DNA of 34,415 nt. Source: Verrucomicrobiota bacterium (GTDB lineage: Bacteria; Verrucomicrobiota; Verrucomicrobiia; Limisphaerales; JADLHS01). Below are positions 1-32,288 of this stretch, one piece after another (position 1 is the stretch's first letter; each line of letters opens with the position of its first letter). The position numbers and the translations under genes are program-made. Under the pieces are notes generated by a model, which worked only from the letters and a program-made list of their open reading frames with translations, did no database searches and had not been told where the DNA came from. The DNA lies in contig JANXWY010000447.1 of the NCBI GenBank assembly GCA_025350905.1, positions 1 through 34,415 of the forward strand, in the 5' to 3' direction.

Positions 1-1763
1 GGCCACACCCCGAACTTCGCCGGCGTGTAAATCCGGCCACGCCACATGCTGTCGCCAAAGGCATTGAAGTACTCCGGATGTTTACGGAGCAACAGCGCCT
101 CCGCTTCGCCATAGCCCCGCTGCTGTTCCAGGTACGCACCCACGGTCGAACGCCGGTAATGCCAGACGAACGCCGCCGGGCTGAACCCAATTTTAAATCC
201 CGCCTGCTGCAGACGCCAGCAGACGTCCACATCGTCGCCGGCCTTGCGAAAGATCGGGTCGAAGTTGCCGATGGCCGTCAGCGCCGTCTTGAAGCAGGCC
301 AGGTTGCAACCGGGAATATGCTCGGCCTGCCGGTCATCCAACATGACATGCGCGGGGCCGCCGGGCGAAACCATCACCGCCGCCGCAATGGCGGCATCGT
401 CCGACGGCAACAAATTCGGCCCGCCCATCGCGCTGAATTCCCCGGTCAGCAAATCCGCCACGAGATAATAAAGCCAGTCAGCATCCACGCGGCAATCCGC
501 ATCCGTGAAGGCGACAATCTCCCCGGCCGCCGCAGCGATACCCGTGTTGCGGGCGACGGAGAGCCCAAGGTTGGTGGCATGGCGAAAGTAATGGAATTTT
601 CCACCGACGGCGCTGCTCACGAGCTGATGCGTGGCGCCGCCGGCCGCGGTTTCCGTCTTGGCAGCCGGCCCGGCCCCGGGCTCGGCAGGCGTTTGGCCGC
701 GCCGAAACTCCTCGGCCAGTTGCGGTGTCGTATCCGTCGAACCGTCATCCACGAGGATGATTTCAAAGTCCGGGTAAACAATTTGGCGCAGCGATTCAAG
801 ACACGCCTTGAGCGTGCGGTCACCATTATAACTGGCGACCACCACGGAGACTTTCGGGGTGCGCGGCAACGGAAAACGCGGCGCGGCGTGGAACAGCCTT
901 TGGACGGTGGCGAAGGAGGCCTTGCGTTCGCGGGCGGCGGTCGTGAGGCCCATCTGCCAGTCGGTGATTTGCTTACCACTATGATACCAATCGTCCGTGA
1001 AACTAAACACCACGGCGCCCGCCAGGCCGCCACGAAAGGCGAGTTCGATTTGCCAGGCGAGCGTGGCGCCCTTGACCGGCTCGCCTTCACGCAAGGAATC
1101 CATTCCGAATTCGCCCAAGACCAGCGGCCGGGCCTCCGCCATCATTTGCAGCCGGGCGAGATAGCTTTTGAACGGCTGCGGCTGATGCAGATAAAGGTTG
1201 AAGCAAAGAAAGTCGAGCACTTGCGGACGCACAAATTCCGTGGGCGGAAAATTGGTGAACGTGCAAAGGCAGTGCGGATCCAAGCGTTTGGCCTCGCCAA
1301 CCAGTTCATCGATGAAATCCGCCACCCGCGCCGCGCCGCTCCAGCGGACGATGTCCGCCGGGATTTCGTTGGCCACACTGTAGGCAAACACCGCCGGGTG
1401 ATGCAGGCAGGCCAGGACCGCGTGGCAGACGGCTTGGCGTGCGGCGGACCGGCGCGCGGCGTCGTCGAGGAAAACCAGATGCTTGTCCCACGGGATGTCA
1501 ATCAGCAGGAGCAAGTCGTGCTGGGCGGCGAGATCCAAAAACCAGCGCGGCGGGACGTGATAGACGCGCAGCACGTTGGCCCCGAGCTCGCGGGCGAGCA
1601 GGAAGTCGCGCCCGGTTTGCTCCAACGACGCAAATGGCTCCCCGGCCGCATTGGGTGCAAACGGCCCGTACGTGACGCCTTTAAGATAAAATTTCTCGGC
1701 GCCCCGACGAAAGAATTTTCCATCCACCCAAACCCGGGGACGGTTGGCAAACAAATCAGCCAT
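1..1763 (-). CDS. Glycosidase-like TIM-barrel / family 2 glycosyltransferase fusion (C-terminus cut by window edge)
   Basis: Reading from ATG at 1763 to the left edge gives 587 codons with no stop, so the C-terminus is missing. Residues about 10-295 resemble the catalytic barrel of GH2/GH5-type clan A glycosidases. They start with a 'FYLKGVTYGPF' strand, then SVANE (N132-E133, acid/base position) and VLGEFG (E218, nucleophile position). Residues about 303-587 are a GT2 (GT-A) domain: VSVVVASYNG, then LVDDGSTD at D339-D340, a TDAD metal motif at 421-423, and a GDDVDVCWRLQQAG acceptor motif. A Gly/Ala/Thr-rich insert of about 35 residues (353-388) interrupts the GT domain. There is no signal peptide or membrane segment in the visible part, so a cytosolic or membrane-associated role in building a polysaccharide is likely. 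The substrate is unknown. The gene is divergent from ilvN. No clear ribosome site precedes the ATG. Confidence 0.85.
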   Translation of the reverse strand, partial: MADLFANRPRVWVDGKFFRRGAEKFYLKGVTYGPFAPNAAGEPFASLEQTGRDFLLARELGANVLRVYHVPPRWFLDLAAQHDLLLLIDIPWDKHLVFLDDAARRSAARQAVCHAVLACLHHPAVFAYSVANEIPADIVRWSGAARVADFIDELVGEAKRLDPHCLCTFTNFPPTEFVRPQVLDFLCFNLYLHQPQPFKSYLARLQMMAEARPLVLGEFGMDSLREGEPVKGATLAWQIELAFRGGLAGAVVFSFTDDWYHSGKQITDWQMGLTTAARERKASFATVQRLFHAAPRFPLPRTPKVSVVVASYNGDRTLKACLESLRQIVYPDFEIILVDDGSTDTTPQLAEEFRRGQTPAEPGAGPAAKTETAAGGATHQLVSSAVGGKFHYFRHATNLGLSVARNTGIAAAAGEIVAFTDADCRVDADWLYYLVADLLTGEFSAMGGPNLLPSDDAAIAAAVMVSPGGPAHVMLDDRQAEHIPGCNLACFKTALTAIGNFDPIFRKAGDDVDVCWRLQQAGFKIGFSPAAFVWHYRRSTVGAYLEQQRGYGEAEALLLRKHPEYFNAFGDSMWRGRIYTPAKFGVW

Positions 1764-15393: not shown

Positions 15394-16056
15394 TTAATTC
15401 ACCACCAAACCCTCGGTTCGGGAACCACCCAGAACGACCGTCACCCTGCTGCCGGACTCCACGCGCCCTTCCTTGTTCGGTAAGAGCGTGAAATAGGTTT
15501 TGCCCGCCACCAGCTTTTGCGAGGTCTGGTTCTCGCGTTGGAACGGCACCATGAGAACCTTGTTGTTCGATTGATTGTAAATGTAAACAAGATTAGTCAG
15601 GTACAGGAGCGAGGACGCCTTGGTGGCATCAACCACCTTGTAGCGCAGGTCCAGGGCGGCACCCCGCAAAGCCACCCCAACTTGGGTGATCTCAATGCCC
15701 CAGTGGTCCGCCATGCTCTCCGTGGACTCGGACGCAAAACCCACCACCGGCCCCCGAGGGTCGACGACGGCGCCGCTGGGCGACAACACCACCGGCTTGG
15801 CGGTATCCTGCGCCACGCGAGCTACCTTCGCCACCGGCTCCTGGCTCACCGGTGGTTCGCTCGGTGCGATCTCGGCTTCAACGGCTGGCGACGAAGCCTT
15901 CGGGCGGCTTGCGAAAAACAACGCCACCGTCATGGCTACCAATACGGTCGTGATAATCCACAGCCTCACCGTATTTGGGCGATCCGGAAGTTCGGCACCC
16001 GGCTGGCCGTTGCCTGGCGAATGGATCGCCGGCGATTTAATTACACTCGGTTTCAT
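15394..16056 (-). CDS. Membrane-anchored 'WGI-domain' protein (unrecognised family)
   Basis: 220 residues. A short Pro-rich N-terminus is followed by one membrane helix (RLWIITTVLVAMTVALFFAS, residues about 31-50) and an Ala/Pro/Glu-rich linker. A C-terminal domain (about 118-220) begins DHWGIEITQVGVALRGAALD. It matches the neighbour at 16174-16983 at WGIxIT, D(L/F)RY, DAxKA, GKTxxxLxxN and GSxVxVxxG.R.E.L.V. I do not recognise the family. The domain probably lies outside the cytoplasmic membrane. It is 62 bases upstream of the C25 gene and 117 bases downstream of its paralogue, all on the minus strand, so an operon with the exported proteins is plausible. No clear ribosome site precedes the ATG. 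Confidence 0.75.
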   Translation of the reverse strand: MKPSVIKSPAIHSPGNGQPGAELPDRPNTVRLWIITTVLVAMTVALFFASRPKASSPAVEAEIAPSEPPVSQEPVAKVARVAQDTAKPVVLSPSGAVVDPRGPVVGFASESTESMADHWGIEITQVGVALRGAALDLRYKVVDATKASSLLYLTNLVYIYNQSNNKVLMVPFQRENQTSQKLVAGKTYFTLLPNKEGRVESGSRVTVVLGGSRTEGLVVN

Positions 16057-16173: not shown

Positions 16174-16983
16174 TCACTCGCCCACCGTTAAATTTTCAGC
16201 GCGAAAGTCGCCGATGATGATGTCCACCTTGCTTCCGGCTTTGACCAATTTTCCGGGGTTGCCAAACAGCGCCGTACAGGTCTTGCCGTTGGCGATCCGT
16301 TGCCCCGTGCTGCGCATGGTCCCAACCTTGGTGCTGGGAACGTGCAAACTCTTTCCACTCGCACGATCGAGCAGCTCGGTTTTGCTCTTGGGATTCCCCA
16401 AGGTCGCCGCTTTGACGGCATCCGTGATTCGGTAGCGAAAATCGATGACATTGCCGCCCGCGGAAATTCGTAACGCGGTAATTTGAATGCCCCACTTGGA
16501 TTCGAGTCCTTTGGCCGCGACGGCGGAGATCACGTTGGTGGAAACCACATTCGTCGAAACGTGGACGTTCGGCCGGGCCACGGGTGCGCTGGGATCCGCT
16601 TGGACGGTGGTCGCCAGGCATAACATCACGAAGCAGACGGCAACGACCGTGATGACTGATGAATCCCTGGGATAGGCGACACAGTTAGGAACCAGCCTGC
16701 GGCGCTGCGGAGCGATGCTCCCTCGCCCCCACAAAGGGCGCGAGGGCCGGGGTGAGGGGGAAAAGCCGTACGGCCGTTGACCAACGCCACCTTCCGCCTC
16801 CCCACGCAACCCCTCGCCCTGACCCTCTCCCCTTCCGAAGGGGAGAGGGAAGCGGACGCCGCGCGGCGGCGTTCGGTCGGCGCAGCGCGCCGACCCTACC
16901 TCGGAAAAGTACGGCGGCGAATCGTAAAGACTGAGGACCACTGCAACCAACCGATCACACCGACGCTGCCAGGAATTTTTCAT
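16174..16983 (-). CDS. Exported 'WGI-domain' protein with a repeat inserted in its signal peptide
   Basis: 269 codons from ATG 16983. The first residues, MKNSWQRRCDRLVAVVLSL, look like a signal n-region and the start of a core. Residues about 45-103 are the 177-bp repeat read in frame. A full signal core (SSVITVVAVCFVMLCLATT, ending VQA) begins immediately afterwards. The mature part (about 126-269) contains SKWGIQITALRISAGGNVID, DFRYRITDAVKAATL, a VPSTKVGTMRSTG stretch and GSKVDIIIGDFRAENLTV. It is a paralogue of 15394-16056 but lacks a retained membrane anchor. The family is not recognised. The start follows a small ORF by 20 bases; the only ribosome-like bases (AAGG) are two bases from the ATG, so the start is moderately supported. 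A secreted partner role for the upstream cupredoxin proteins is inference from position. Confidence 0.72.
   Translation of the reverse strand: MKNSWQRRCDRLVAVVLSLYDSPPYFSEVGSARCADRTPPRGVRFPLPFGRGEGQGEGLRGEAEGGVGQRPYGFSPSPRPSRPLWGRGSIAPQRRRLVPNCVAYPRDSSVITVVAVCFVMLCLATTVQADPSAPVARPNVHVSTNVVSTNVISAVAAKGLESKWGIQITALRISAGGNVIDFRYRITDAVKAATLGNPKSKTELLDRASGKSLHVPSTKVGTMRSTGQRIANGKTCTALFGNPGKLVKAGSKVDIIIGDFRAENLTVGE
16677..16853 (-). repeat. 177-bp two-hairpin repeat, copy B, in frame in the WGI gene
   Basis: Same length and order as 14974-15150, starting CGACACAGT and ending GAGAGGGAAGC. The first hairpin is diverged (CCCTCGCCCCCACAAAGGGC) but the pairing is kept. It is read in the same frame as copy A and ends directly before the signal core. 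A single GGTCGGCGCAGCGCGCCGACC arm follows at about 16884-16905. Confidence 0.9.
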
Positions 16984-17003
16984 GGCCTTATCTTCGCACA
17001 GTC

Positions 17004-17258
17004 TTACTCTCGCACAAGGGAGAGGTCGAGTCGGATCCCGATGCAACTAGCGACGGCATTCGCCGCCGTTCCCAGCGCAGAATGAGGGTCGAGCAGCGCC
17101 AAACCTTGAACGAAGCGCGGCTTCGATTCGACACTGGTGGGGATCGCCCCAGGCAAGGTCGCGGCCCCATTCCCGGAGAATCTGTTTGCGGGATTCGGGA
17201 CTGGATTTCCCGCGGCTTGGCTCCCCAGGCCACCGACTTCAATACGTGAGTCGTTCAT
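17004..17258 (-). CDS. Small hypothetical protein
   Basis: 84 residues from ATG 17258, with AGGAC about nine bases upstream as a possible ribosome site. The sequence is rich in Gly, Ala, Pro and Asn (MNDSRIEVGGLGSQAAGNPV, later SVESKPRFVQGLALL). It has no signal peptide, membrane helix or known motif. It sits between the third cupredoxin gene and the WGI gene, ending 20 bases before ATG 16983. Frame and spacing favour a real gene in the operon, but the ORF is short and a second frame across the same bases is also open. I do not recognise it. Confidence 0.3.
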   Translation of the reverse strand: MNDSRIEVGGLGSQAAGNPVPNPANRFSGNGAATLPGAIPTSVESKPRFVQGLALLDPHSALGTAANAVASCIGIRLDLSLVRE

Positions 17259-17420: not shown

Positions 17421-19670
17421 TTAGGGATTGACCGTCAAATTGCCGAACGTCGCCGTGTTACCGCTATTGACTGATACGGCACAAGGATTGGTGACCACCA
17501 CGCGGTATCGGCCGGCATCGGCCGCCGTGACGCCGGTAATGGTCAACGTGGCGGTGGTGGCACCGCTAATGGTGCCGCCGTTGGTGACGTTGGCGTAGGT
17601 GCTGGTGTTTCCAACGCGCTTTTGCCATTGATAGGTTAACGGAGTGGTTCCCGTTACGACAGAACCAGTGAAACTCGCAGTTGTTCCAGTTGCGGTCGTC
17701 ACGTTAGCTGGAGGTAGGATCACAGTCGTGGCACAACCGACCGTCAGGTTACCGACCAGGGCGTTGTTGCCACTATCGACCGTTACCCCACAAGGATTGG
17801 TAACCAATACACGGTATCGGCCGGCATCAGCCGCGACCACCCCAGTCAAGGTCAGTGTTGCGGTGGTGGCGCCGCTGACATTCCCGCCGTTGGGAACGTT
17901 TGTGAAGGTGCTACCTGAATTTCCCGAACGCTTCTGCCATTGATAGGTTAACGGCGTCGAGCCCGTCGCTGCGACCGTAAAGTTGGCATGTTGCCCCGGC
18001 GGCACGGTGAGGTTGGCGGGCCCAACCAATAACGTCGTGGCGCAATTAACCGCGAGGGTGGCGTTTCCGCTCAAAGTTGAGCCGCAGCCATTGCCAACGA
18101 ACAGGCGATAGTTGCCAGCGTCGGCAGGGGTGACTCCGGACAAACTCAAGGTGCTGCTGGATTGCCCAGGCACAACCGTGAAGGTGCTGGTGCTCAAGGG
18201 ACCGCTGTACTTGCGCCACTGGAAGGTCAACGGCGCCGATCCGTTAAAGGAGCTGCCGATGGTCACATTCGCCCCATAAGTCACGGACTGGCTGGCCGGG
18301 GTGATGGTAGCGAGTGTCGGGGCTACACAAGGGAGCACTGACAACACGGCGGCTTGGCTGATAGCCGATCCACAACCGTTGCCCACCAACACATCGTAAC
18401 TGCCACTGGCAGCGCTCGTCACACCGACCAAAGTCAATGAGCTACTATTCGCGCCAGCGAGGTTTGCTCCATCTTTGCGCCATTGATAAACCAGCGGCGC
18501 CGTGCTGCTGGCACTAGCAGTGACGTTGAAAGTGACGTTCCCGCCCGGAGCTACCCCTTGGCTGGTGGGACCGACGGAAATGGCGGCTGCGGTGCAGACC
18601 GAAGCTTCATCCGCGGCAGCCAATTTGCGAAACATGCCGCCGCCGTTGGCCAGACCTAGCTTGCGGTCGGAGAATTGATATTCCTGCGACCCAGCCCCGG
18701 CGGGCGGCGTGAACTGAATGTCCATCGTCTTCAGCGCGGACATGTTTGGAGCATAGAGTGTCTTAGGGTAGGCATAGGGCTCGCCGTCTTCCGCGATTAC
18801 CTGGAGATAATTCGCGCTGCCCGAGGGCAAGGGTCCGGTCAGGGACGGGATGTGTGAATTCCAACCCGCATTGATCACGCGGAACAGCGTGGTCCAACCA
18901 TTTTTCAAAGCCGGCGCCAACTCCGGAGTCCCCGCGATCGAGCCTGCGGGATCATAGGTCCGGCCGTTGATCAGGAAGATGCTCGGTTTCGAATGGATGG
19001 TGCTGCTGATCGTTTTGCCGGCGCCATAATCGTTAGCGGCGACCGCCTCATGGAGTACGGGATCGATCTCGCTGAAGATCACCGGCACTTCGCCACCGAG
19101 GCCAAGGGCCACGCCCGGATAAGCCTGTGTGGCGGCGACCTTGATGGTGACCATGCCGAACAGACCCATTTGCACCTGAAGGGCTGGGTGGCTGCCGCTG
19201 TGGTAAACGAACGTGCCGGGTTTCAGATTGGTCCAGGTAAAGGTGCGACTACCGCCGTTCGCCACCTCGGGGACAAAGGATCGCACGCGATTCGCGTAAT
19301 TTGGATCGGCGGCATCGAACCGGACCGGTTGTCCCGCCTCCGCGCTGCCGTTGAGACTCGGAATGACCACGGAGATGGGCTCCGGCAATCCGTTATGAAC
19401 CGTGATGGCGAGGCCATCGTTCACAGTTAAGTCCACATTGATCTGCGGTCCAGGCACCGAGGCGAGCCCGTCGGCGGTGGCCGCAAAGCCCCACATCGGA
19501 ATACTGCCCGCGACGGCAGTGGCCGATGCGTCGCCCGTGGTGGGATTGAGATAGACGAGCTTGGCGTAGAGGTCCACGGCCAGCGAGGCGCTCGAACCGG
19601 TGTTCGCCGCGAGCATACTAGCGGCGCCTAAGAGGGCCAAGGCCACCCGATTGATAATTCGATTTTTCAT
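17421..19670 (-). CDS. Cupredoxin-pair (multicopper-oxidase-like) protein with four Ig-like domains, copper ligands lost
   Basis: 749 residues from ATG 19670, chosen because GGAG lies seven bases upstream. The signal peptide is MKNRIINRVALALLGAASML, then AANTGSSA. Two cupredoxin-like domains follow. The first has IPMWGFAAT, VPGPQINVDLTVNDG and GTFVYHSGSHPALQVQMGLF; H157 and H161 remain but the type 1 Cys is Ser and no HxHG is present. The second has NAGWNSHIPSL, VIAEDGEPYAYP and FSDRKLGLANGGGM, with no HCH. From about residue 370 there are four Ig-like repeats with the pattern YQW(R/Q)K...G...LTL.GV..A.AG.Y.V.V.N.CG. It is the last of three cupredoxin genes, 46 bases after the previous stop. 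A structural or binding role is more likely than oxidase activity. An upstream in-frame start at 19697 is less likely. Confidence 0.88.
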   Translation of the reverse strand: MKNRIINRVALALLGAASMLAANTGSSASLAVDLYAKLVYLNPTTGDASATAVAGSIPMWGFAATADGLASVPGPQINVDLTVNDGLAITVHNGLPEPISVVIPSLNGSAEAGQPVRFDAADPNYANRVRSFVPEVANGGSRTFTWTNLKPGTFVYHSGSHPALQVQMGLFGMVTIKVAATQAYPGVALGLGGEVPVIFSEIDPVLHEAVAANDYGAGKTISSTIHSKPSIFLINGRTYDPAGSIAGTPELAPALKNGWTTLFRVINAGWNSHIPSLTGPLPSGSANYLQVIAEDGEPYAYPKTLYAPNMSALKTMDIQFTPPAGAGSQEYQFSDRKLGLANGGGMFRKLAAADEASVCTAAAISVGPTSQGVAPGGNVTFNVTASASSTAPLVYQWRKDGANLAGANSSSLTLVGVTSAASGSYDVLVGNGCGSAISQAAVLSVLPCVAPTLATITPASQSVTYGANVTIGSSFNGSAPLTFQWRKYSGPLSTSTFTVVPGQSSSTLSLSGVTPADAGNYRLFVGNGCGSTLSGNATLAVNCATTLLVGPANLTVPPGQHANFTVAATGSTPLTYQWQKRSGNSGSTFTNVPNGGNVSGATTATLTLTGVVAADAGRYRVLVTNPCGVTVDSGNNALVGNLTVGCATTVILPPANVTTATGTTASFTGSVVTGTTPLTYQWQKRVGNTSTYANVTNGGTISGATTATLTITGVTAADAGRYRVVVTNPCAVSVNSGNTATFGNLTVNP

Positions 19671-19677
19671 TATTTTT

Positions 19678-19681
19678 CTCC
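19678..19681 (-). promoter_or_regulatory. Shine-Dalgarno fixing the third cupredoxin start
   Basis: GGAG on the minus strand, seven bases before ATG 19670, inside the 46-base gap after the preceding gene. It favours this start over the one nine codons upstream. Confidence 0.65.
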
Positions 19682-19716
19682 AGTTAAAGATTTGCAAATT
19701 GAGGCGTGTGAATCAT

Positions 19717-21075
19717 TCAAGGTGTGGTGGGCCAGGCCTCGACGAGGGCGAAGGTCATCATGCCGCCGGGGAAGATGTCATTGTTGACGATCTCCTTCTC
19801 GGCGTGGGAGTGCCACAGAAACATGAAGCCGTTGTTGGCGTTGAATTGATTTTCACCCGGCGGCAGAATCCCCGGCGTGCCCAAGAAAGGACTACCGCCA
19901 TACATCATGCCGTCCACGAGGTGCTGCTGTGCGGGCAGCGTGACCGGGAAGCCAAGCGGGTGAGCCGCCGTGGCGTGATCCGCTAACAGTTCGCCCTTGG
20001 CAAGCGCTTCACCGGGCTTGTGGCCATAGACATCCCAGCCTAAGCCCGTACCAGTCCAGGAGAAGATCGTGTCAATCGTGCTGCCAGGCGTGGAGGGCAC
20101 GGTGAACTCCAAGTTGCCCAAATCCGCGCCCGAGCCACCCGGACTCTGGAGCAGCCGCCCGTCTTGGGCGATCATCCGGGCATGGTTGCCGTGATGGTGA
20201 AGCGGATGTTCGTCGCTGCCGCCACCAATCACGCGCATCAACACATTCTCGCCGGGGTGAAACACCGGGAAGCAATCGTACGGTTGCACCGGCAGGCTGG
20301 GGTGGCTGCCGGGCATCATGGTGTCCGGGCCGCACCGGCCGTTCATGAACCAATAGACGGCGAAGCGTGTGCTCATGTCCACGGTGATCGGTAAGGTGCC
20401 GGCTTGCACCTGTTGCTCCACCGTGTTGTGAATCGTTTCGTCCATGTCCGAGAGCAGGAACAGATACTCGTGATCGAAGGTGGAGGAGGCATCCGCGTAA
20501 GCCTTGCGATTGGGGTTGGGCGTCCCGCTGACGTCGGCCGCCGCGCTGAATCCGCTCGGCCGCACGATGATGGCGCCAACCATTCCCATCTCGATTTGCA
20601 GGTCGGGCTGGGTGCCGCTTTGATACATGTAAGTCCCCGGCTGAGTGGGCGTGAAGGTATAGCTCACCACGCCGCCGCCGGTGCCGTCGAGGCCGGCCGC
20701 GCCGGCCTCCAACGTCAACAGGCCGTTGGCGCTCGGCGCTCTTACCTCCGCAACCGAAACGTTCGCCTGGCCGGGAAAGGTCATTGAAGTTGCCATCGGC
20801 AGGCTGTTACTCAGCGTGACGGTGACCTCGACGCCCTGCTCGAGGATAAGGGTAGGCCCGCTGTATTGGGCCGCCGTCATCCCGTAACCCCAGAAGTAAA
20901 GGCTGTTGCCTTCCGGGGTGCTGAGGTAGCCCGGCGCGGCTACGAGGTTGAACGAAGTGCCGGTCAGGCCTTCCACCAAGTGAGGAGCGGCCAAGCCGCT
21001 TCTAGCTGATGCCAACAGCAGGAGCGCTGCGGCGGCCAAGCTCAGTTTGCCGGGGATTGAAGTTTGCGTATTCAT
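19717..21075 (-). CDS. Two-cupredoxin multicopper-oxidase-like protein keeping only the HxH (trinuclear-type) ligands
   Basis: 452 residues from ATG 21075, with AGGA five bases upstream. The signal peptide is MNTQTSIPGKLSLAAAALLL, then LASARSGLAA. The first cupredoxin (LYFWGYGM, YSGPTLILEQGVEVTVTLSN, GTYMYQSGTQPDLQIEMGMV) has lost all copper ligands: Gln replaces the His of YHCH. The second keeps EHPLHHHGNHARMIAQDG (H290, H293-H295) and FLWHSHAEKEI (H422, H424), ending IFPGGMMTFALVE. The Cys of HCH is Ser, so no type 1 copper is expected, but four His suit half of a trinuclear site. An alternative ATG at 21120 overlaps the giant gene's stop (TGATG), implying translational coupling. It is probably periplasmic or extracellular. 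Confidence 0.88.
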   Translation of the reverse strand: MNTQTSIPGKLSLAAAALLLLASARSGLAAPHLVEGLTGTSFNLVAAPGYLSTPEGNSLYFWGYGMTAAQYSGPTLILEQGVEVTVTLSNSLPMATSMTFPGQANVSVAEVRAPSANGLLTLEAGAAGLDGTGGGVVSYTFTPTQPGTYMYQSGTQPDLQIEMGMVGAIIVRPSGFSAAADVSGTPNPNRKAYADASSTFDHEYLFLLSDMDETIHNTVEQQVQAGTLPITVDMSTRFAVYWFMNGRCGPDTMMPGSHPSLPVQPYDCFPVFHPGENVLMRVIGGGSDEHPLHHHGNHARMIAQDGRLLQSPGGSGADLGNLEFTVPSTPGSTIDTIFSWTGTGLGWDVYGHKPGEALAKGELLADHATAAHPLGFPVTLPAQQHLVDGMMYGGSPFLGTPGILPPGENQFNANNGFMFLWHSHAEKEIVNNDIFPGGMMTFALVEAWPTTP

Positions 21076-21119
21076 TTGTTTCCTTTTTCTATTTTGAATC
21101 TTTGTCATGGCGTCGTGCA

Positions 21120-24100
21120 TCAGGGAGCAATCACAATCTCCGTCATCAGACCGCCGTAGTCTTCCGTGTTATTGGACAGGTGGTTTAACCGGGTGGCATA
21201 CACCATATACGTCCCCGCGTTCACGTTGGTGGTGTCCAGAATGACGTCCGTCGTTTCGCCGCCACCCAGCTTCACCGAGGTGGAGTTGTAGGCGAGATTC
21301 TTGCCGGTCGGCCCGCGCAGCAACCGCGCGTCCTTGGCCACCACCTTCATGGGGATGCCCAACACGGTGATCGTATGAATGTCCGTCTCGGACACGTTCG
21401 ACAGGCGCAGGAGAATGCGCTGACCTTTCTTGGCCGTGACGAGCGAGGTTACTTTCTGGGTCACGCGACCGGCCTGGACGGCATAATCATTCGAAGGTGC
21501 CGGAGCAAGCGGGTTAGGATTAATCGTGTCCGGATACCCACGGCCATTGAACAGCGGGTAATCATCATGCAACTCGGCGAAGGGCAGCGGCTGCACGGCG
21601 ACATGCTGTTCGTGGAAGTTCTTGTCGAACCCGGTGACCTGCAGCGGCGCTTCCACGTCGTAACGGGTCGAGCCGTCGCCGTCGTTGTAGGCATACTTGT
21701 TGCCGGTCTGATGCACGTAGCTTCCCAGCACCGTGCCGTTGGGCAGGTTGTTCTGCTTGGGCAGAACCCAGAGATTTCCGATCATACCCATCTGCATGTG
21801 CTCGGTGGCCTCCACGTGGCAGTGATACAGATACGTGCCCGGTTCGACAATCTTGTAGTAGTAGCGCAGCGTACCACCCATGCCAATGGCGACGGAGGCC
21901 ATGGGCTCGCCGTCGAAGATCGAGGCGGCCTGGGCGAAGCCGTGGAAGTGGACCGAGTGCGGGTCGAACAAGTCCGGCCGCATCATCATGCCCACGTTGG
22001 ACAGATCGAGGTAGGCGTGACGACCCTCATGGAACACCATGGTGGGTGCAGCCAGGTTCGCCGAAAGCAAACCTTCGCTCATCACCTTCGGTCCGATCCC
22101 GCGGAGGATTTCCTCCACAGCCGGACTATGGGCGGCGGCAAAGCGACGAACCGCGGCCAAGTCGAGCAAGGCGGTTTGCGCCAGAAGGCCCTGAGCTTGA
22201 GTGCCGCCATTACTTGGGATAATCGCGCGGATGGCCAAAAGCTTTGCCCGCAGAAGCGTATCAGCATCATTACGCACAATGTTCTGATCCGCCAAGCTCG
22301 CGATTCGATCGCGTGCATCTCTCCGGGCGCTGGTGTCAGCACCGCCATTGGCCAGTGGCCCATTGGCGATTGCGGTGATTCTGTCAGCAATCACGTCGAC
22401 CGTCGCCAACGTCGCCTTGGCGGTCTCGTCCGTGACGGTTTTCGTCTGGTCCGAGAAGCCGAAGGTGTAGAGATCAGTGCCGTCGGCCATGGTGGCAAAA
22501 CCATCCCCAGCGGTCAGGTTGAAGTAATCCACATCGTTGGCCGGATTGCCGTCGCCGTCGCTATCAACACCGGGTTCGGGATCGAGCAACGGGTTCTGCG
22601 GGTCACCCGGCAGCGGATTCAAGCTCAGGGGCGCCATCGGAGCGCCCGGGAGCACACCGGGGCCAGTGACCGGGCCGGTTAAGGCGGGAGCATTTCCCGT
22701 AGCCTGCGGCCCGGACAAAGCCACCGCAATCGTCGGAGCGGCAGGCGGAACGATACTCAAGGCGGTGCCGAATTCGTCTGCGCCAATGTCGGGTGTGGTA
22801 TCGCGGGCGACCTTATCAAAGTCGGTCGCGAGCACACTGCGTTGCGCGTTTGAAAGTCCGTTAATGGTTGCAGTATTTGCCCCGCCGTTTCTCGCCGGGG
22901 ACCCCGTTGTGAGGTGATAGTTACCTTGGTTGGCGCCCGATGGAGTGAAAACACCAATCGGGGAGAACCGAACCGAGATGTTGTTGCCCGCTTCGTCAAT
23001 CACCGCAGCCGTAACCAGAGTGTTGGTGTATGGTTTCACAAACAAGGGGTCCACACTAGAAAGCGTGCAATTGACAGCACTGAGCGATCCGGCGACGCCT
23101 TCAACCAGCAAGTCCTGGAATAGGCCAGCCGAGTTGGGGAAGAGGTGGTTGCCAGTAGTGCCCACATTCGCTTTGTCATAGTAGAATGAGCGGTTCCGGA
23201 AGAAAATGTCGTTCCGCAATTGAGGATTGCAGTACGTCTGTCCGGAGGCGCTGGCCAAGTCCGCCGAAGTGGCATAAGTCACCAGACCAGCTCCATGCGG
23301 AGTTGAAACACTAGGATTCACGGTGAACGAGGGCAGTGCCGTCGAGGTGCTGTCGTTGAAGGCGACGGTGTTATTTATGATTCGCACGCGGGTGGCATCC
23401 ACCAACGAGATACCGCCACCCGACAAACCGGAGGCATTGTTCACGATGATGTTGTTGAAGATATCCAACGCGTACCAATTGCCCGAGTTGCCAGCGCCCG
23501 GTGCCGCCAGGACGTCCGCGCCGTTCACGCCAGCCGCGCGAATGCCGCCGCCATAACCCGCACCGGCAAGGTTACCTTGAATCAGGTTGTTGGCGATCGT
23601 GAGCGATCCCGAGCCATCGGTCAGCACGGCCCCCGGCGCCACGAGGCCGCCGATAAAGATGCCGCCACCGTCGCCGCTGAACGCAATGTTCGCCGCCGGT
23701 GTGCCGTAGAATACTTCGTTAAACGCGATCACGTTGTTGGCGATGAGGCCGCCGGGACTGAGGCCTTCGTGGCCGATGCCACCACCGCTGCCGCGGGTGA
23801 AGTTGCCCATGATGTAGTTGTTCTGGATCTTATAGCTCGTCGCGCCGGTGAAGATACCGATACCACCCGCGCCGGCGATGCCGCCGTTTTGAATGATCTC
23901 GTTATACGCGATGACAATATTAGGGTTGTCATACAGTGTGCCGGCCTGTGCTTGTTCGCCGATCGAGATACCGCCGGAGACACTACCCTGGTTGCCGACG
24001 ACGCGGTTATTGCTGATCCGCAGGTTGGCTGCTTGATCCCAGACCACGATGCCGCCGCCCGCAATCGCGCCTTTAATCTGCAATCCGTCAACGCGTGCCG

Positions 24101-27100
24101 CGTATCGCGGCGGGCGACTAGAGGGAGTCCCACCGGTAGTGGCGCGCAAAGCGAAGTCGCTGTTTCCGAGCACCATGACACCGGGCGCCTCGATCGCGGC
24201 GAATGGATCGTTCGCGTTCGCGTCACCCGTGAGGATGAAAGCCGCTTTGTGGTGCCAAGCCGAGAGCCGCTCGGCGGGGTTGGGATTGGCATTGATAACT
24301 GTGCCAACACCTGAACCCTGCAGGCGCAACGGTTTCGAGAGAATCGGATTTTCATTGTAATCGCCATAAGGGCTGGGCGGCACAATAACGAGGTCACCTC
24401 GAGTAGCGGCATCAATTGCATCCTGGATGGGAGTCGCCAAGGGCGAGATGATGGAGTCAGCCGGCACCACGAAGTGAACTCTGGAGTTACCGGAATTCGG
24501 AGTGCTATCGAAAGCGACGGTGACGCCGATCGGCGTGGTCTTGTTGCTGTCGGTGCGAGTCACCATCAGTTGGCCATCGGTCCCGTCCGTCAGACCAGCA
24601 GGCAACCGCACGGTGATTACATCGTTGTTCCATGCGCCAACCACGGTGCAGAGAGCGCCGTTAAAGGTAACTGTGCCGGCGGTGCCAAAGCCAAAATCAC
24701 GAGGCACTAAACTATTCTGACCGTAGCCTGGGCTCAGCGGATCGAGCACATTCACAGTGCCGCGGGAGGTGATCTTGATAGCATCCGTCAGACTATTAAC
24801 CCAGGCGCCTCGGAGAGTGAGAGGGCCACTCGGAGTGTTCGAGGTAACCGCAGTCCCTTCAACTAACTTGATAACCGGGGTACCGCTCGGGGGCTCAATA
24901 TCAAGTTGATTGTTCGGGCCGCCGACAAACCCAGCAACGGGTACGATTGGAGTGTCTGCATACAGATACGTCGCCGGATAGTAGTGCAAGGTCCAAGGCG
25001 TAGTCGCATAAGCCGGATTGTAATTGGGGTCGGGGATCCGATTGTTGGGGTTCGCCGGATCGGCCATGGTTGGATCGTTCAAGATCAAGGTCAGCATGTT
25101 GGGCGCGAAGCCGCTGGGCATGGGGATCGCGGCGCTGACGCCGGAAGGCAGGAGCGCTTCGTAGCTACCGTATTCATCTGAATAGGTGCGGGCAACTTCA
25201 TGACCGGCCCAGTCGCGGAAGGAGATCGGCAGCCAACCGGGCGCACCCTTTTCACCGAAGATCGGATTCTGGGCGTTAAACTCGGCGGTGAGATCGTTCA
25301 ACACAAAACCGACCACGCGGGTGGCCTTTGGAACTTCCGTATACACATGGAAGTCGGCGGCGGCATTCTTACCTTGAGCCACACGAATCCACTTCATGTC
25401 GGCAATGGGCCGTTCCTGTCCGGCAAAGTCGCAAGGGATGTGCTGGTCCGGGAAAAGGCTGAGCTCCGGCGCTACGGTGAACAGATTCGGCTGACTCTGC
25501 CGCACCGCGGGGAGAATGTTGGCCAAGTTGGTGTCGGCCCAGTGATTCGTCGGGGAACCAACCAATTCGGGCGGCAGCAGGAGCTTGCTGGGCTTGTAGG
25601 TATCACCCGTGGTGACATTGTAACTTTCTTCCGTCTGAATCAAATAGCCCTTGGGCGGGCAGGCTTGAACAATATACATGCCCGGCGGGAGGTACTTCAC
25701 TTCGTCAGAACCCGAAGCGACGCCGCCCGGATGATACGAACCGAAGAGATAGCCGCCGTCAAACACGCCTTCGCGAATCTGGTTCCACGTGGAGTAGTTA
25801 TCGCTGCCGATGATGGGCTTGCCTTGAATTACTGGCGGATTCGCTTGTTGCGACCCGGTAGGAGGCGCATCATCCCAACTGTCGGCCCACACAATTTGAA
25901 TCGCATCGCCCGCGTCGAAAACACCGTTGCCATTTCGGTCCACGTCTTCAGGACCAGGCAATCCGCCATCCCGCCATCCCAGTGGATAGTTGTCAATGTC
26001 CGCCAGTGTCACATGGCCGTCCCCGTCGACGTCATCAATCACCTTGTCGGCATTAGCATCCTGATAGAGGACCATCTCGACGCGCGGAATTCCCGATTCC
26101 CATGGATCAATGGTGCCCATGCGCGGATCCGTTTCCGCGCGAGTGGAGCCGTAACCGATGATGCCGGCAATACCACCGTTTTCACCGGGGCCGTAGTTGA
26201 TCTTGCCCCAGTCGATCCGGTTGTTTTGGTTCAAATAAAGTTGCATACCTTCGAGCAGCATCGGCGCGGCCGGATCTGGGGAACCCACGGTGCGGGAAAG
26301 GTTGTTGAGCGTGTTCGGGTTTATGTCCTGGGAGCCGGTCTGGGTGCCATCAGCGTTGACCAGAAACTGCGGCTGCGGATTACGAACGCCATCGGAAGGC
26401 ATGGTCCAACCTTGATCGGGAGGAATCGGTCCGCCTTCATCCACCACCATGGTCGCGCCGGTCGGTTTGAACCGGGTGAAATCCACTTCCGCAATCAGCC
26501 ATTTGAAGAACGGAAACACTTCGGTGAAGGAAAATTCGCCGGCGTTATCGGTGACGGTGGATTGATAAATCGTAGCGTCTCGCAGGCGAAGATTCAGCGT
26601 CTGATTCGGAATGCCAATCTCATTCGCGTCCTTGAATCCATTGGCGTTGCTATCATAGAACACGCTACCTTCGTAAGTACCGAACCAGCGCGAAGACATG
26701 ACTGAGCCAAGGTTCTGCACACTGCCGTTAGCACCCGCGACCGTGATGAAATGCGAACCGAACAGAGCGTCCAGCGGCTTGTCCCAGGTAACGAGTTCAT
26801 AATCGCCTGGCGGTACGTTCGGGATATTGAATACACCCGTGATCGGATCGCATGGCGCGGCGTAAAGGCCAGCCCCAGGCGTCCCCGCGCTGACTGCATT
26901 CAGGGCCACCCACGCTTCCGTCATGACCGGCCCTTCGAACACTTGCTGGTTCAAGGACGGGCGGCCGAAGTGGTTAAAGCGGTTCGTGCCGCGTAGCGTG
27001 ACGCCGCCACTTGGTGGCGGATTCGTGGCCCACACCAAGGTGTTGGGGTCTACGAAACCAAAAAAGACATGATAGTTGCCGGGACCAAAGCCTTCCATGA

Positions 27101-27953
27101 AGACCATCGGCTCATTCGCCTTCGCCCAAGCGTCCACGGTGGGAGTGCCTTCGATGGTCGCGGTTTGGTTCCAGGCGCCGATGACTTTGGGCGTGCTGCC
27201 GTGGCCACCCGTCCAGTCCGAACCGTTCGGAGGAATTAGCTGAACACCGTACTTGCCCATGGCAAGATTCTTGACGAGCGCCTTGCCGTTAGCGTCGGTA
27301 TAGATCTGACCGCTGCCACGAACGTCGACCACTGGCGCGCCATCCACCATATCAAACTCACCAGCCGTCATTTTGTATGTCGTGCCAAGTGGATTTCCGA
27401 AAGTGTCCGTCAAGATCGGGCCGCCCAAAAAATCCTTGAGCATGACATGAAAGCCGGGCAGACCCGCTTCGTTCGCGTCCGGAACGTTATTGACGGGGTT
27501 GTTATCATTGAACACCAAAATGTTGATCTGGGCCGTGGGCAAATCATGCTTGTTCAGGATGACTTTCGCCGTAGTATCCCCGACTTTCACGTTCAAACCG
27601 CCGGCGGAATAGCCATCGGCGAGCACGGAAAGGAGGTAAGGCATGGTCGCGTCCGGCAAGCTGATCGTAGCCGAACTGCCGGCGCTGCTGCCGGTAGCAG
27701 CCACGGCCGCGTGACTCTTGTGCATAATGACGGAAGCGGTGTCGTTCCGAGCGACACCAGGTTGACCAGGAGCGGTGTTGTCCTCTTCCAGCATCCAGCG
27801 AAATTTGGATACCGGCGCTCCCGACCCATCCACTACGGTCAGGTTGAGAGCGAAAGCTCGGGCTTGCAGCAACAAGCCGAGGCACAGCGCTAACGCGCCA
27901 GACAACCATTGCTTGAGGGGTGTGGTTTTGATTGCGAACATACGTTTATTCAT
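21120..27953 (-). CDS. Giant exported protein: SdrD-B/calcium-binding, TIG, beta-helix and C-terminal cupredoxin pair with a complete type 1 copper site
   Basis: 2277 residues from ATG 27953 (AAGG eight bases upstream; ATG 27980 is an alternative). The signal peptide ends ARAFA at 35. Residues about 36-1000 hold Cna/SdrD-B-like units with calcium-type loops: DNNPVNNVPDANEAG, DSNANGFKDANE, and DANADKVIDDVDGDGHVTLA near 645. A TIG/IPT-like domain covers about 1045-1155. A right-handed beta-helix (PIQDAIDAATRGDLVIVPP to PDIGADEFG) covers about 1165-1725. Cupredoxin A (to about 2065) has HSVHFHG (H1999, H2002, H2004) and HCHVEATEHMQMGM (H2044, C2045, H2046, H2052, M2057), a full type 1 set plus HxH pairs. 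A helical stretch of about 125 residues interrupts it. Cupredoxin B has the fold but no ligands. It is first in the operon. It is likely a surface oxidase or electron-transfer protein; substrate (Mn, Fe, Cu or phenolics) is unknown. Confidence 0.9.
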   Translation of the reverse strand: MNKRMFAIKTTPLKQWLSGALALCLGLLLQARAFALNLTVVDGSGAPVSKFRWMLEEDNTAPGQPGVARNDTASVIMHKSHAAVAATGSSAGSSATISLPDATMPYLLSVLADGYSAGGLNVKVGDTTAKVILNKHDLPTAQINILVFNDNNPVNNVPDANEAGLPGFHVMLKDFLGGPILTDTFGNPLGTTYKMTAGEFDMVDGAPVVDVRGSGQIYTDANGKALVKNLAMGKYGVQLIPPNGSDWTGGHGSTPKVIGAWNQTATIEGTPTVDAWAKANEPMVFMEGFGPGNYHVFFGFVDPNTLVWATNPPPSGGVTLRGTNRFNHFGRPSLNQQVFEGPVMTEAWVALNAVSAGTPGAGLYAAPCDPITGVFNIPNVPPGDYELVTWDKPLDALFGSHFITVAGANGSVQNLGSVMSSRWFGTYEGSVFYDSNANGFKDANEIGIPNQTLNLRLRDATIYQSTVTDNAGEFSFTEVFPFFKWLIAEVDFTRFKPTGATMVVDEGGPIPPDQGWTMPSDGVRNPQPQFLVNADGTQTGSQDINPNTLNNLSRTVGSPDPAAPMLLEGMQLYLNQNNRIDWGKINYGPGENGGIAGIIGYGSTRAETDPRMGTIDPWESGIPRVEMVLYQDANADKVIDDVDGDGHVTLADIDNYPLGWRDGGLPGPEDVDRNGNGVFDAGDAIQIVWADSWDDAPPTGSQQANPPVIQGKPIIGSDNYSTWNQIREGVFDGGYLFGSYHPGGVASGSDEVKYLPPGMYIVQACPPKGYLIQTEESYNVTTGDTYKPSKLLLPPELVGSPTNHWADTNLANILPAVRQSQPNLFTVAPELSLFPDQHIPCDFAGQERPIADMKWIRVAQGKNAAADFHVYTEVPKATRVVGFVLNDLTAEFNAQNPIFGEKGAPGWLPISFRDWAGHEVARTYSDEYGSYEALLPSGVSAAIPMPSGFAPNMLTLILNDPTMADPANPNNRIPDPNYNPAYATTPWTLHYYPATYLYADTPIVPVAGFVGGPNNQLDIEPPSGTPVIKLVEGTAVTSNTPSGPLTLRGAWVNSLTDAIKITSRGTVNVLDPLSPGYGQNSLVPRDFGFGTAGTVTFNGALCTVVGAWNNDVITVRLPAGLTDGTDGQLMVTRTDSNKTTPIGVTVAFDSTPNSGNSRVHFVVPADSIISPLATPIQDAIDAATRGDLVIVPPSPYGDYNENPILSKPLRLQGSGVGTVINANPNPAERLSAWHHKAAFILTGDANANDPFAAIEAPGVMVLGNSDFALRATTGGTPSSRPPRYAARVDGLQIKGAIAGGGIVVWDQAANLRISNNRVVGNQGSVSGGISIGEQAQAGTLYDNPNIVIAYNEIIQNGGIAGAGGIGIFTGATSYKIQNNYIMGNFTRGSGGGIGHEGLSPGGLIANNVIAFNEVFYGTPAANIAFSGDGGGIFIGGLVAPGAVLTDGSGSLTIANNLIQGNLAGAGYGGGIRAAGVNGADVLAAPGAGNSGNWYALDIFNNIIVNNASGLSGGGISLVDATRVRIINNTVAFNDSTSTALPSFTVNPSVSTPHGAGLVTYATSADLASASGQTYCNPQLRNDIFFRNRSFYYDKANVGTTGNHLFPNSAGLFQDLLVEGVAGSLSAVNCTLSSVDPLFVKPYTNTLVTAAVIDEAGNNISVRFSPIGVFTPSGANQGNYHLTTGSPARNGGANTATINGLSNAQRSVLATDFDKVARDTTPDIGADEFGTALSIVPPAAPTIAVALSGPQATGNAPALTGPVTGPGVLPGAPMAPLSLNPLPGDPQNPLLDPEPGVDSDGDGNPANDVDYFNLTAGDGFATMADGTDLYTFGFSDQTKTVTDETAKATLATVDVIADRITAIANGPLANGGADTSARRDARDRIASLADQNIVRNDADTLLRAKLLAIRAIIPSNGGTQAQGLLAQTALLDLAAVRRFAAAHSPAVEEILRGIGPKVMSEGLLSANLAAPTMVFHEGRHAYLDLSNVGMMMRPDLFDPHSVHFHGFAQAASIFDGEPMASVAIGMGGTLRYYYKIVEPGTYLYHCHVEATEHMQMGMIGNLWVLPKQNNLPNGTVLGSYVHQTGNKYAYNDGDGSTRYDVEAPLQVTGFDKNFHEQHVAVQPLPFAELHDDYPLFNGRGYPDTINPNPLAPAPSNDYAVQAGRVTQKVTSLVTAKKGQRILLRLSNVSETDIHTITVLGIPMKVVAKDARLLRGPTGKNLAYNSTSVKLGGGETTDVILDTTNVNAGTYMVYATRLNHLSNNTEDYGGLMTEIVIAP

Positions 27954-28140: not shown

Positions 28141-28612
28141 CCTGCCAGTGTTTTTGCGGACGAGGCTTAACGCGCCAGGGAGGCGTGACATTTCGACGCC
28201 ATCACTGCGAATGGCTTAATACCATTGCAAACACAGGACATTTTGTGATTTTGCCGAGTCGGAATCGGGCGAAGCATGTGCTGGTGGGAGACTCGCGAGG
28301 GTTTCCACCCGCCACGAGCGGATGAACCACCAAGGACCATTGTCGCGGCTGGAATAAACCGGCCGAAGTTTTTTGCACTCCCGGACCGTGCCGAAAAATA
28401 GGAGTGTCTTTCCGTAGCCGCCGCAGTTCAACCGGGGACAACTACGGACAGCAGCAAGGGCACGGAAACTATAGCCGCAAAAGATCGCAGAGAAGGCAAA
28501 AGAAACCGAGGATTGGTCGACCTGCATTCGGCCCAAGGACCAAGCGGCAGGGGAATGTTTGGCACAGGAATCGGGACGGGAATATTTTGTGTGCAAGTCC
28601 TAATCGGGAGGA

Positions 28613-28796
28613 TTTTTCCGGAGCGCGGGCGATCCCGCGCCCGCAGCGGTTCGCCAGCCGGGACAGGTCCGGATTAACTGACGATTGTTCGGCCGCTAAA
28701 CCGCTGCGACCGGGGACCGTCCGCGCTCCTTTATTTTATTCCCCTGACGCTCATTCCTTTGCCATTTTTGTTTCCGACCCAATGGGTCAGGGGAAT
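28613..28796 (+). repeat. 184-bp direct repeat, copy 1
   Basis: From TTTTTCCGGAGCGCGGG to GGGTCAGGGGAAT. It contains GCGGTT(C)/AACCGC and CCCCTGAC/GTCAGGGG inverted pairs. It matches 29119-29302 at all but a few bases. Confidence 0.85.
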
Positions 28797-28848
28797 AACC
28801 GGCAGCGGAATAAACTCCCTTGAGGCCGCCTGAATCCTCTTCTTCCAT

Positions 28849-28950
28849 TCTTTCGTGGATTTGGCGTATTTCGTGGTTCATCCAACTCCGGGTGCAAGCC
28901 CAAGCGGAACGTTTCTTTTCAACCACGAAACACACGAACGACACGAAAGA
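28849..28950. repeat. AACCACGAAA palindromic element, copy 3
   Basis: TATTTCGTGGTT on the left and AACCACGAAACACACGAACG on the right flank a core reading TCCAACTCCGGGTGCAAGCC. The core is inverted relative to the copies at 7.6-8.0 kb. Confidence 0.8.
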
Positions 28951-29118
28951 AACAATCGAGGTTAGCCGGATCGGATAGCTAGCCGCAAAAGATCGCAGAG
29001 AACGCAAAAATCAAATCGAAAATTTCTCGGACTGCATGCGACCCAGGAAACAAACGGCAGGGGAATGTTTGGCAAGGGAATTCGGAAGGGAAGACAACTT
29101 CATCCCGTCCGATGACGG

Positions 29119-29302
29119 TTTTTCTGGAACACGGGCGGTCCCGCGCCCGCAGCGCTTCGCCAGCCGGGACAGGTCCGGATTAACTGACGATTGTTCGGCC
29201 GCTAAACCGCTGCGACCGGGGACCGTCCGTGCTCCTTTATTTTATTCCCCTGACGCTCATTCCTTTGCCATTTTTGTTTCCGACCCAATGGGTCAGGGGA
29301 AT
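29119..29302 (+). repeat. 184-bp direct repeat, copy 2
   Basis: Counterpart of 28613-28796, with small changes only near the left end (TCTGGAACACGGGCGGTCCC) and in single bases. Confidence 0.85.
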
Positions 29303-29354
29303 GAAGGTCAACGGAATAAACTGCGCTGAGCAGACCTGATTTCACTCCTTGTAT

Positions 29355-29457
29355 GTTTTCGTGTGTTTAGTGTATTTCGTGGTTAATCCAACTTCGAGTG
29401 CAAGTCCCAAGCGGGACGGTGCTTTTCAACCACGAAACACACGAACGGCACGAAAGA
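29355..29457. repeat. AACCACGAAA palindromic element, copy 4
   Basis: Arms TGTATTTCGTGGTT and AACCACGAAACACACGAACG around a core with TCCAACTTCGAGTGCAAGTC, in the same orientation as 28849-28950. A left-arm half copy follows at 29615-29652. Confidence 0.8.
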
Positions 29458-29823
29458 ACAAATCCCGGTTAGCCGGATCGGATAGCTGGCCGCAAAAGAT
29501 CGTAGAGAACGCAAAAGCGACAGGGAATTTCTCGGCCCGCCTTCGACTCAAGATCCAAGCGGCAGGAGAATTCGCGGATAGCCCTATTGATCCAGGGAAC
29601 TCCCTCCTACCATGCTTTCGTGTGTTTTGTGTATTTCGTGGTTAATCCAACTGTCTTCTCTCGGCTGAGAGTTGAATCCTGCATTCAGCGCCGGCGGTCC
29701 GCCTTGCTTGATTGCTGATACTCGCGGCGTTCGGCCAGTCGCAGTCAACCCAGCCCGGCTCGCTCGGAGCGCCGAGGCGCAGACTCGGAAGTGCCCCGAG
29801 AGCCAAATTAGTAATTAAAATTT

Positions 29824-29852: not shown

Positions 29853-29930
29853 CGCCAGTCCAAAATCCGATTTATGGTTCGTTGACGGTTAATTCCTAAC
29901 CCTGGCGACAAGTTGATAATTCTCGAAATC

Positions 29931-32288
29931 ATGAAAAGAAAATTAATTGTAGTATGGACGTTGGCCGTTCTTTGCGCCCTCGGTTTCCCACTTGCCACCG
30001 CGCAAGCCCAAGGCACGGCCCTCACTTACCAAGGCCGGCTCAATGATACCACTGGCCCGGCCAACGGGAGTTATGATCTGGAGTTCACCCTCTATGCGTC
30101 CAGCACCGCCGGCCCGGTCGTCGCGGGACCCCGGACGAACTCGGCCACCGCGGTGAGCAACGGTCTGTTCACCGTGACCCTGGATTTCGGCGCTAACTTT
30201 CCCGGAGCGGACCGTTGGTTGGAAATCGGCGTGCGCACGAATGGCGGTGCCGCGTTCAACACTCTTATTCCCCGGCAGCAACTCACGGCTACGCCCTATG
30301 CCATCACCGCCATCGCGGTGTCGGGCGGCGTGGCGGCCAGTCAGGTGACGGGCACGATTGCTTTGGCCCAACTACCATTGGCCGTGGTGACCAATGGCGA
30401 GAGTGGTGTGAACCTGTCCGGCACCTTCTCCGGGAACGGCGCGGGTTTGACAGGGGTCACTGGCCTGACCGGTCCCCAAGGCCCCATAGGATTAACTGGT
30501 GCGACGGGGCCAACCGGCCCGCAAGGTCTGATTGGACTGACGGGCCCACAGGGCATCGCCGGGATCAATGGCACCAATGGGATTAATGGTACGAACGGTC
30601 TCACCGGAGCGACTGGCCCCCAAGGGCCCATTGGCTTGACCGGGGCGACTGGTGCGACGGGCCCGCAAGGCCCAATCGGTTTGACCGGGGCGGCCGGTTC
30701 CACGGGTGCTCAAGGGCCGATTGGTTTGACGGGGCCGCAGGGCATTGCAGGTATCAACGGCACCAATGGGGTTAATGGTACGAATGGTCTCACTGGCGCA
30801 ACGGGCCCGCAAGGTCCGATCGGTCTGACTGGGGCTACCGGTTCCACGGGTGCTCAAGGGCCGATTGGTTTGACCGGGCCACAGGGCGTCGCGGGTATCA
30901 ACGGTACCAATGGACTTACTGGCGCGACGGGTCCGCAAGGGCCCATTGGCTTGACCGGGCCCACTGGAGCGACTGGCTCGCAAGGTCCGATAGGTTTGAC
31001 CGGGGCCACCGGAGCAACCGGCGCCCAAGGACCGATTGGTTTGACGGGCCCACAGGGCATCGCTGGTATCAACGGCACCAATGGTGTTAACGGCACCAAC
31101 GGACTCACTGGGGCGACCGGTGCGCAAGGGCCCATTGGCTTGACCGGGCCCCAAGGTCCGATCGGTTTGACTGGAGCTACCGGATCCACCGGTGCCCAAG
31201 GGCCGATTGGTTTGACGGGGCCACAAGGCGTCGCCGGCATCCACGGCACCAATGGGGTTAATGGCACGAACGGGCCTCAAGGACCGATGGGCTTGACCGG
31301 AGCGACAGGTTCAACAGGACCCCAAGGTCCAATTGGTTTGACCGGAGCAACGGGAGCAACCGGCCCCCAAGGTCCGATCGGCTTGACGGGGGCAACGGGC
31401 CCCGCTGGCCCGACAGGTCCTCAGGGGCCAGCTGGCGCCTCGGCATCGACGACACCATTCGGCATGGTGCTGATTCCGGCGGGTGCCTTCACGATGGGTA
31501 ACTCGATTGGCGACACCGACATTACCGACGCCACGAATGTATCCGTGACCCTGTCCGGGTTTTACATGGACGCGAATCTGGTGAGTTTGAGTCAATGGCA
31601 GACAGTGTATACTTGGGCGACAAACTTTGGATACGAATTCTTCGATCTTGGAGCCGGCAAGGGGGTGACGCACCCGGTGCAATCGATAGATTGGTTTGAC
31701 GTGGTGAAATGGTGCAATGCGCGGTCCGAGCAAGCAGGGCTAACACCGGTGTATTATACCGACGCGGCATTGACGCGAATCTACACGAATGGCGAACCGG
31801 CAACGCTCTATCCGAAATGGGTCGCAAATGGTTATCGCCTACCCACCGAGGCGGAGTGGGAGAAGGCTGCCCGCGGAGGGTTGAGCGGACAACGGTTTCC
31901 TTTGGGCAACGTCCTTAAACAAAAACAGGCCAACTACTTTGGCGACACCGGCAGCTTCACCTATGACTTGGGTCCCGACGGTTATAATGCGATCGGACAG
32001 ATTGGTGGAACAACCCCAGCGACGAGCCCGGTGGCCACCTTTGCACCAAATGCATATGGACTCTACGATATGGCGGGGAACGTCTTCCAATGGTGTTGGG
32101 ATTGGTATGGGACGCCCTACGCCGGCGGCAACGATCCGAAAGGGCCCGTCGGTCCGTTGACCTTCCGGGTGCTGCGTGGCGGGAATTACGCATTCAACGC
32201 CGATTCCGTGCGTTGTGCGAATCGTTCCTACGACTTGCCGGATTTATCGGACACCGGCTATGGCTTTCGGTGTGTGCGCGGGCTTTAG
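29931..32288 (+). CDS. Secreted collagen-like protein with a C-terminal FGE-sulfatase-fold domain
   Basis: 785 residues from ATG 29931 (an in-frame TTG lies six codons upstream; no Shine-Dalgarno is seen). The signal peptide is [20 protein letters not shown], then LATAQA. Residues about 27-170 form a beta-rich domain ([20 protein letters not shown], later [14 protein letters not shown]), common at the base of bacterial fibre proteins. Residues about 172-503 are uninterrupted Gly-X-Y triplets, rich in [13 protein letters not shown] and GINGTNG. The tail (about 510-785) is an FGE/SUMF-type domain: [60 protein letters not shown], and [10 protein letters not shown] to GYGFRCVRG. One cysteine of the FGE active pair is absent, so it is probably a binding fold at the tip of a trimeric stalk. 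A surface adhesin or appendage is likely. Confidence 0.92.
30447..31437 (+). repeat. Gly-X-Y coding repeat region with long near-identical superunits
   Basis: About 110 collagen triplets. Larger units, ordered GPQG(I/V)AGINGTNG - GLTGATG - [12 protein letters not shown](S/A)TG, recur with highly similar DNA (for example GGGCCGATTGGTTTGAC repeated many times). Such arrays can change length by recombination. Confidence 0.9.

Follow-up and report, generated by a model that had tools for sequence, protein, structure and literature searches.

The window analysed here (34,415 nucleotides, positions 1 to 34,415 of contig JANXWY010000447.1 in Verrucomicrobiota bacterium assembly GCA_025350905.1) carries three neighbouring cupredoxin genes. 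They encode a giant exported protein whose C-terminal cupredoxin pair is referred to below as the first protein, followed by a second and a third protein (Table 1). One base is common to the giant's stop codon and a start codon of the second gene (TGATG), which fits coupled translation, and there are no co-transcription data. Residue numbers of the giant follow its open reading frame; those in a preliminary description of this DNA are lower by 9 for the giant and by 15 for the second protein than open reading frame numbering because later start codons were used there, and the motifs which that description had assigned to the two proteins were all found where it had placed them.

Table 1 Features of the cupredoxin gene set in the window
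Feature	Coordinates	Strand	Remarks
Giant, exported protein, 2286 aa	21120..27980	-	SdrD_B-like, beta-helix and other scaffold domains, with C-terminal cupredoxin pair ("first")
First, cupredoxin domain A, about residues 1965-2080	21741..22088	-	Full type 1 set and four cluster His
HSVHFHG, giant residues 2008-2014	21939..21959	-	Type 1 H2008; cluster H2011, H2013
HCHVEATEHMQMGM, giant residues 2053-2066	21783..21824	-	Cluster H2053, H2055; type 1 C2054, H2061, M2066
First, cupredoxin domain B	21123..21740	-	No copper ligands kept
Second, exported two-cupredoxin protein, 467 aa (452 from later ATG)	19717..21120	-	
Second, cupredoxin domain A	20551..20988	-	Ligands lost: TSMTFPG (residues 111-117), YQSGT
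Second, cupredoxin domain B	19720..20523	-	Four cluster His, without type 1 Cys
HPLHHHG, second residues 305-311	20188..20208	-	H305; cluster H308, H310
WHSHAEKE (WHSH = second residues 436-439)	19792..19815	-	Cluster H437, H439
Third	17421..19697	-	Two cupredoxin domains without cluster set, then four Ig-like domains; likely start is ATG near 19670

The first and second proteins align through both of their cupredoxin domains (E 6e-28), so that the ligand losses of the two are in register. The best profile match of both families was the two-domain oxidase 3g5w; domain A of the first protein aligned with domain 1 of this structure (HTIHWHG, YHCHV...EH...GM), and domain B of the second protein with its domain 2 (HAIHTHG, HDH). 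Each of the eight ligands in domain A of the first protein (type 1 H, C, H and M, and four cluster His) is invariant across all 46 homologues, in whose domain B the equivalent positions are not conserved metal ligands. Among the 45 homologues of the second protein, one of them truncated, the cluster His of domain B were kept in 44-45, and the positions in domain A equivalent to ligands were replaced. None of the 46 first and 45 second proteins has both ligand sets. The claim of the preliminary description that the giant and the second protein have kept opposite ligand sets was thus borne out, the sets being retained reciprocally in these homologues, and ligand conservation of this degree argues that the split pattern is not a product of chance. 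The description had also read the Ser in the HSH motif of the second protein as a replaced type 1 Cys. The Ser is present, but domain 2 of type C two-domain oxidases normally lacks a Cys at this position, as in the HDH of 3g5w, and the residue is therefore no sign that a type 1 site was lost.

A diverged but complete copy of the set, in the order first, second, third, is located on contig C465 of the same genome (G000:C465, L006:2727-14675); its proteins are 59, 51 and 43 % identical to the first, second and third proteins of the window, respectively, and show the same reciprocal ligand pattern. Homologous sets occur in the phylum of the window, in Gammaproteobacteria, in Burkholderiales (including Paraburkholderia, Noviherbaspirillum and a Rhodoferax MAG), as well as in Occallatibacter and its phylum. 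Dozens of bacteria belonging to several phyla show the reciprocal division, with no exception. At each of the 30 loci that extend far enough to reveal gene order, the genes ran first, second, third on one strand, with three separate cupredoxin genes at every complete locus and the six domains never in one chain. Routine absence of either protein, which the preliminary description had regarded as a refutation of its proposal, was not observed: both families were present in 23 of 925 sampled genomes (three samples, with 4/388, 7/300 and 12/237), the second was never found without the first (0/925), and the first was found without the second in one genome (G861), where it runs to the contig end. 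This standalone first protein was set aside as a counterexample, its gene being cut by the end of the contig. The lowest pairwise identities were about 41 % (first) and about 37 % (second), with 22 loci below 80 % identity, and the distance matrices of the first, second and third families correlate with r of 0.93-0.95, as is expected of genes inherited together. One large alignment (A4), which combined fused with single proteins, was left out, since MAFFT had put rows of the second and third proteins onto the first; alignment A8 was partly affected by the same misplacement, and every row of alignments A6 and A9 was checked.

The preliminary description gave a two-protein account, of which the split of the ligands was confirmed and the completeness was not, as the adjacent third cupredoxin gene had been overlooked. 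Homologues of the third protein have no copper cluster set, lack the type 1 ligands and the domain 1 half of the cluster as well, and form the least conserved of the three families. The SdrD/beta-helix scaffold is fused ahead of the first protein in the window, L006 and L035, is a separate gene at L018-L021, L023, L037 and L067-L070, and is fused behind the third protein in Burkholderiales and related loci; the scaffold of L068 has a match to PF14686 (polysaccharide lyase domain II). A single module that switches fusion partners is classical evidence of parts acting together, and the occurrence of the scaffold on the first protein, on the third, or separately therefore indicates that the parts of the set are functionally tied together. 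The role of the third protein in an enzyme, most likely the completion of a ring, is inferred solely from the order of the genes, their homology and the fusion of the scaffold, and its presence makes a ring of three subunits likelier than a simple heterodimer.

Type C two-domain oxidases (3g5w of Nitrosomonas europaea and 2zwn) resemble the set in having two cupredoxin domains per chain. In the type C enzymes, domain 1 carries the type 1 copper and half of the cluster, which in the set are found only in the first protein (46/46), and domain 2 of the same chain carries the other half, which in the set is on domain B of the second protein and is missing from domain B of the first. A type C oxidase is hence one polypeptide with both halves that forms a homotrimer, whereas in the set the halves are on two paralogues, accompanied by a ligand-free third paralogue and a giant scaffold. 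Two-domain oxidases, among which type C is also described, are homotrimers in which each cluster is common to neighbouring protomers (PMC13151041).

The folds of the models obtained here matched type C two-domain oxidases at 2.5-3.2 Å. The first, second and third proteins of locus L019 were modelled by AlphaFold as one chain (A6), which was possible because the three genes lie in one frame, with the intergenic stop codons read as Gly. These artificial linkers may bias the arrangement, and no coordinates were available from which His-His distances could be derived. The model was of moderate confidence (pTM 0.76, mean pLDDT 74.7), and its first protein alone matched 3g5w and 2zwn (Z 30). A three-domain oxidase, 6vow, aligned with the model at 2.8 Å over 374 of 409 residues (model 1..778, from domain A of the first protein to the end of the second, only the ends of the range being reported). 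In three-domain oxidases such as laccase the trinuclear cluster is positioned between domains 1 and 3. With moderate confidence, and from this one model, domain A of the first protein takes the position of domain 1, and the last part of domain B of the second that of domain 3, at the trinuclear interface, and it is because the 6vow alignment puts them there that the two domains are taken to be the halves of one site. The laccase-like arrangement was not among the best 50 matches of a poorer model of the first and second proteins of L025 (pLDDT 68.5, pTM 0.69), in which the region of domain B of the second protein has low pLDDT. The meeting of the two domains that the preliminary description had expected of a predicted structure is consequently supported by one model and did not appear in the other. 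Its proposal of a heteromer holding all ligands of one oxidase is supported by the reciprocal ligands, with the physical contact of the two domains inferred and not demonstrated.

The active site of a copper enzyme that is normally made of one kind of protein thus appears, on the strength of its ligand residues, to be divided over two neighbouring proteins. We consider it probable that the set specifies one exported heteromeric multicopper oxidase, with its site between domain A of the first protein and domain B of the second, the third most likely completing a pseudo-threefold ring, and the giant serving as an anchor. Gene order, three-way homology, reciprocal ligands, co-occurrence and swaps of scaffold fusion were computed; assembly, ring geometry, copper loading and the oxidation of metal, for instance Fe(II), are inferred. 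In such an enzyme the first protein would provide the type 1 copper (H, C, H, M), where electrons would enter from the substrate, together with four His as one half of the trinuclear cluster, and the second would provide the remaining four His, the two domains being opposed like domains 1 and 2 of adjacent subunits in the homotrimeric type C oxidases. Oxygen would be reduced to water at this interface, the ligand-free third protein would close a ring with a single live interface out of three, and the SdrD/beta-helix part of the giant would hold the enzyme outside the cell. The ligand pattern would demand a ring order of first, third, second, which is again an inference. The most economical reading of the origin of the set is that a two-domain oxidase gene was triplicated and the copies became specialised, the first presumably retaining the domain 1 half, the second the domain 2 half, and the third neither. 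We lean only slightly towards the stricter proposal of an obligate heterotrimeric oxidase of three paralogous two-domain subunits with a single catalytic interface between the first and second proteins, which would be a bacterial multi-protein counterpart of ceruloplasmin on a giant surface scaffold and would oxidise metal extracellularly. Complex formation, copper content, activity and substrate remain unproven, and there is no direct evidence for the first three.

An enzyme without the third protein, in the form of a simple heterodimer or an (first-second)n ring, would have the same split site, with the third merely a surface or adhesion protein outside the enzyme core. The absence of a copper cluster set from the third protein, its poor conservation relative to the other two families and the Ig domains of the window's copy speak for this arrangement, which we nevertheless regard as improbable, given that the third gene comes after the first and second at 30 of 30 complete loci, that its product has the same two-cupredoxin architecture and can itself carry the scaffold fusion, and that two-domain oxidases are trimers (PMC13151041).

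The two ligand-bearing proteins might also act independently, the first as a blue copper electron-transfer protein, for which its complete type 1 site could suffice, and the second as a copper-binding protein in its own right, the two sharing no cluster. This is very unlikely, as it leaves unexplained both the co-occurrence of the two proteins and the additional invariant His, four in domain A of the first and four in domain B of the second, that equal complementary halves of a type C cluster. A common site of mononuclear type 2 copper, as in NirK, is harder still to uphold. NirK was also matched in the sequence and fold searches, and its interdomain site lies between neighbouring subunits, but the type 2 site of NirK comprises three His and lacks the HxH/HCH trinuclear pattern, a description that does not fit the set. 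Its eight invariant His (HxH and HCH in domain A of the first protein, HxH and HSH in domain B of the second) have the trinuclear pattern, and the best profile match of both families is a two-domain oxidase.

Six-domain multicopper oxidases keep one trinuclear site of three possible (PMC3600357). Ceruloplasmin and MnxG have six cupredoxin domains, as does the set, in a single polypeptide as opposed to three genes. A sequential ring like those of ceruloplasmin, factor V/VIII and MnxG was considered for the modelled trio and rejected: Foldseek aligned the six domains with an rmsd of about 34 Å and a TM of about 0.2. The failed sequential superposition suggests that the modelled subunits have a different order, compatible with first, third, second. 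A heteromeric or pseudo-trimeric multicopper oxidase was not found in a literature search, from which subscription journals were largely excluded.

Three tandem multicopper oxidase genes of Sideroxydans lithotrophicus ES-1 are described in PMC5566968 as not homologous to previously suggested metal oxidoreductases. According to PMC12016527, Slit_1816-1818 (cluster Slit_1812-1818) are three consecutive uncharacterised cupredoxin proteins, two of them with oxidase motifs, and their abundance on magnetite exceeds that on Fe(II)-citrate; the third is large, with adhesin and polysaccharide-lyase-like domains, and similar clusters occur in Paraburkholderia. The plan of three adjacent cupredoxin genes, one of them large with adhesin/lyase-like domains, is matched by the Burkholderiales loci on the basis of the published description alone, and no statement on a split site or complementary half-sites was found for Slit_1816-1818 in the portions of PMC12016527 and PMC5566968 consulted. 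The giant extracellular oxidases MofA and OmpB are, like the product of the set, very large and exported (no MofA sequence was compared), and a mofC-like gene lies near the set at L068, as mofC does at mofA. As to the function of the set, only the expression data from Sideroxydans and the neighbouring genes point to metal oxidation.

To our knowledge, one gene provides all ligands of the trinuclear cluster in the known multicopper oxidases, either in a single chain or in a homo-oligomer. If the proposed enzyme exists, two gene products that each give half of the cluster would constitute a natural split oxidase, and the separate duplicated proteins would parallel the loss, within the single chain of ceruloplasmin, of all but one of three sites. 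One gene expressed alone should then yield no oxidase, which would be relevant to the assignment of function to such clusters. An uncharacterised gene set, linked in one case to growth on solid magnetite, would become a testable enzyme.

Several features were observed around the sets. In the window, a protein encoded at positions 29913-32288 combines collagen triple-helix repeats with an FGE-sulfatase domain, a similar-looking protein of this type precedes the set in L006, and the intergenic region at about 28400-29700 contains long blocks that appear repeated by eye (e.g. ttcgccagccgggacaggtccgg... and cacgaaacacacgaac... segments). Small exported-looking proteins with a common WGI... core are encoded beside sets (window 15394-16056 and 16174-17046, L006:14997-15461 and L035:15131-15601) and gave no Pfam match where they were searched. 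Each of the genome's two copies of the set has a peptidase C25 gene downstream of it (window 12299-15331 and L006:15458-17377), and putative copper-efflux periplasmic adaptor genes, recognised by eye from a YYQDSMHP... motif, are downstream of the sets at L006:18048-20000 and L035:19163-19999. Cytochrome c proteins are encoded near the set at L068:15372-16997, with a periplasmic-binding domain as in mofC, and at L020:10975-12429. Elsewhere in the genome of the window, L007:298-1926 (G000:C431) encodes a NirK-like protein that ends in a cytochrome-like segment with CxxCH.
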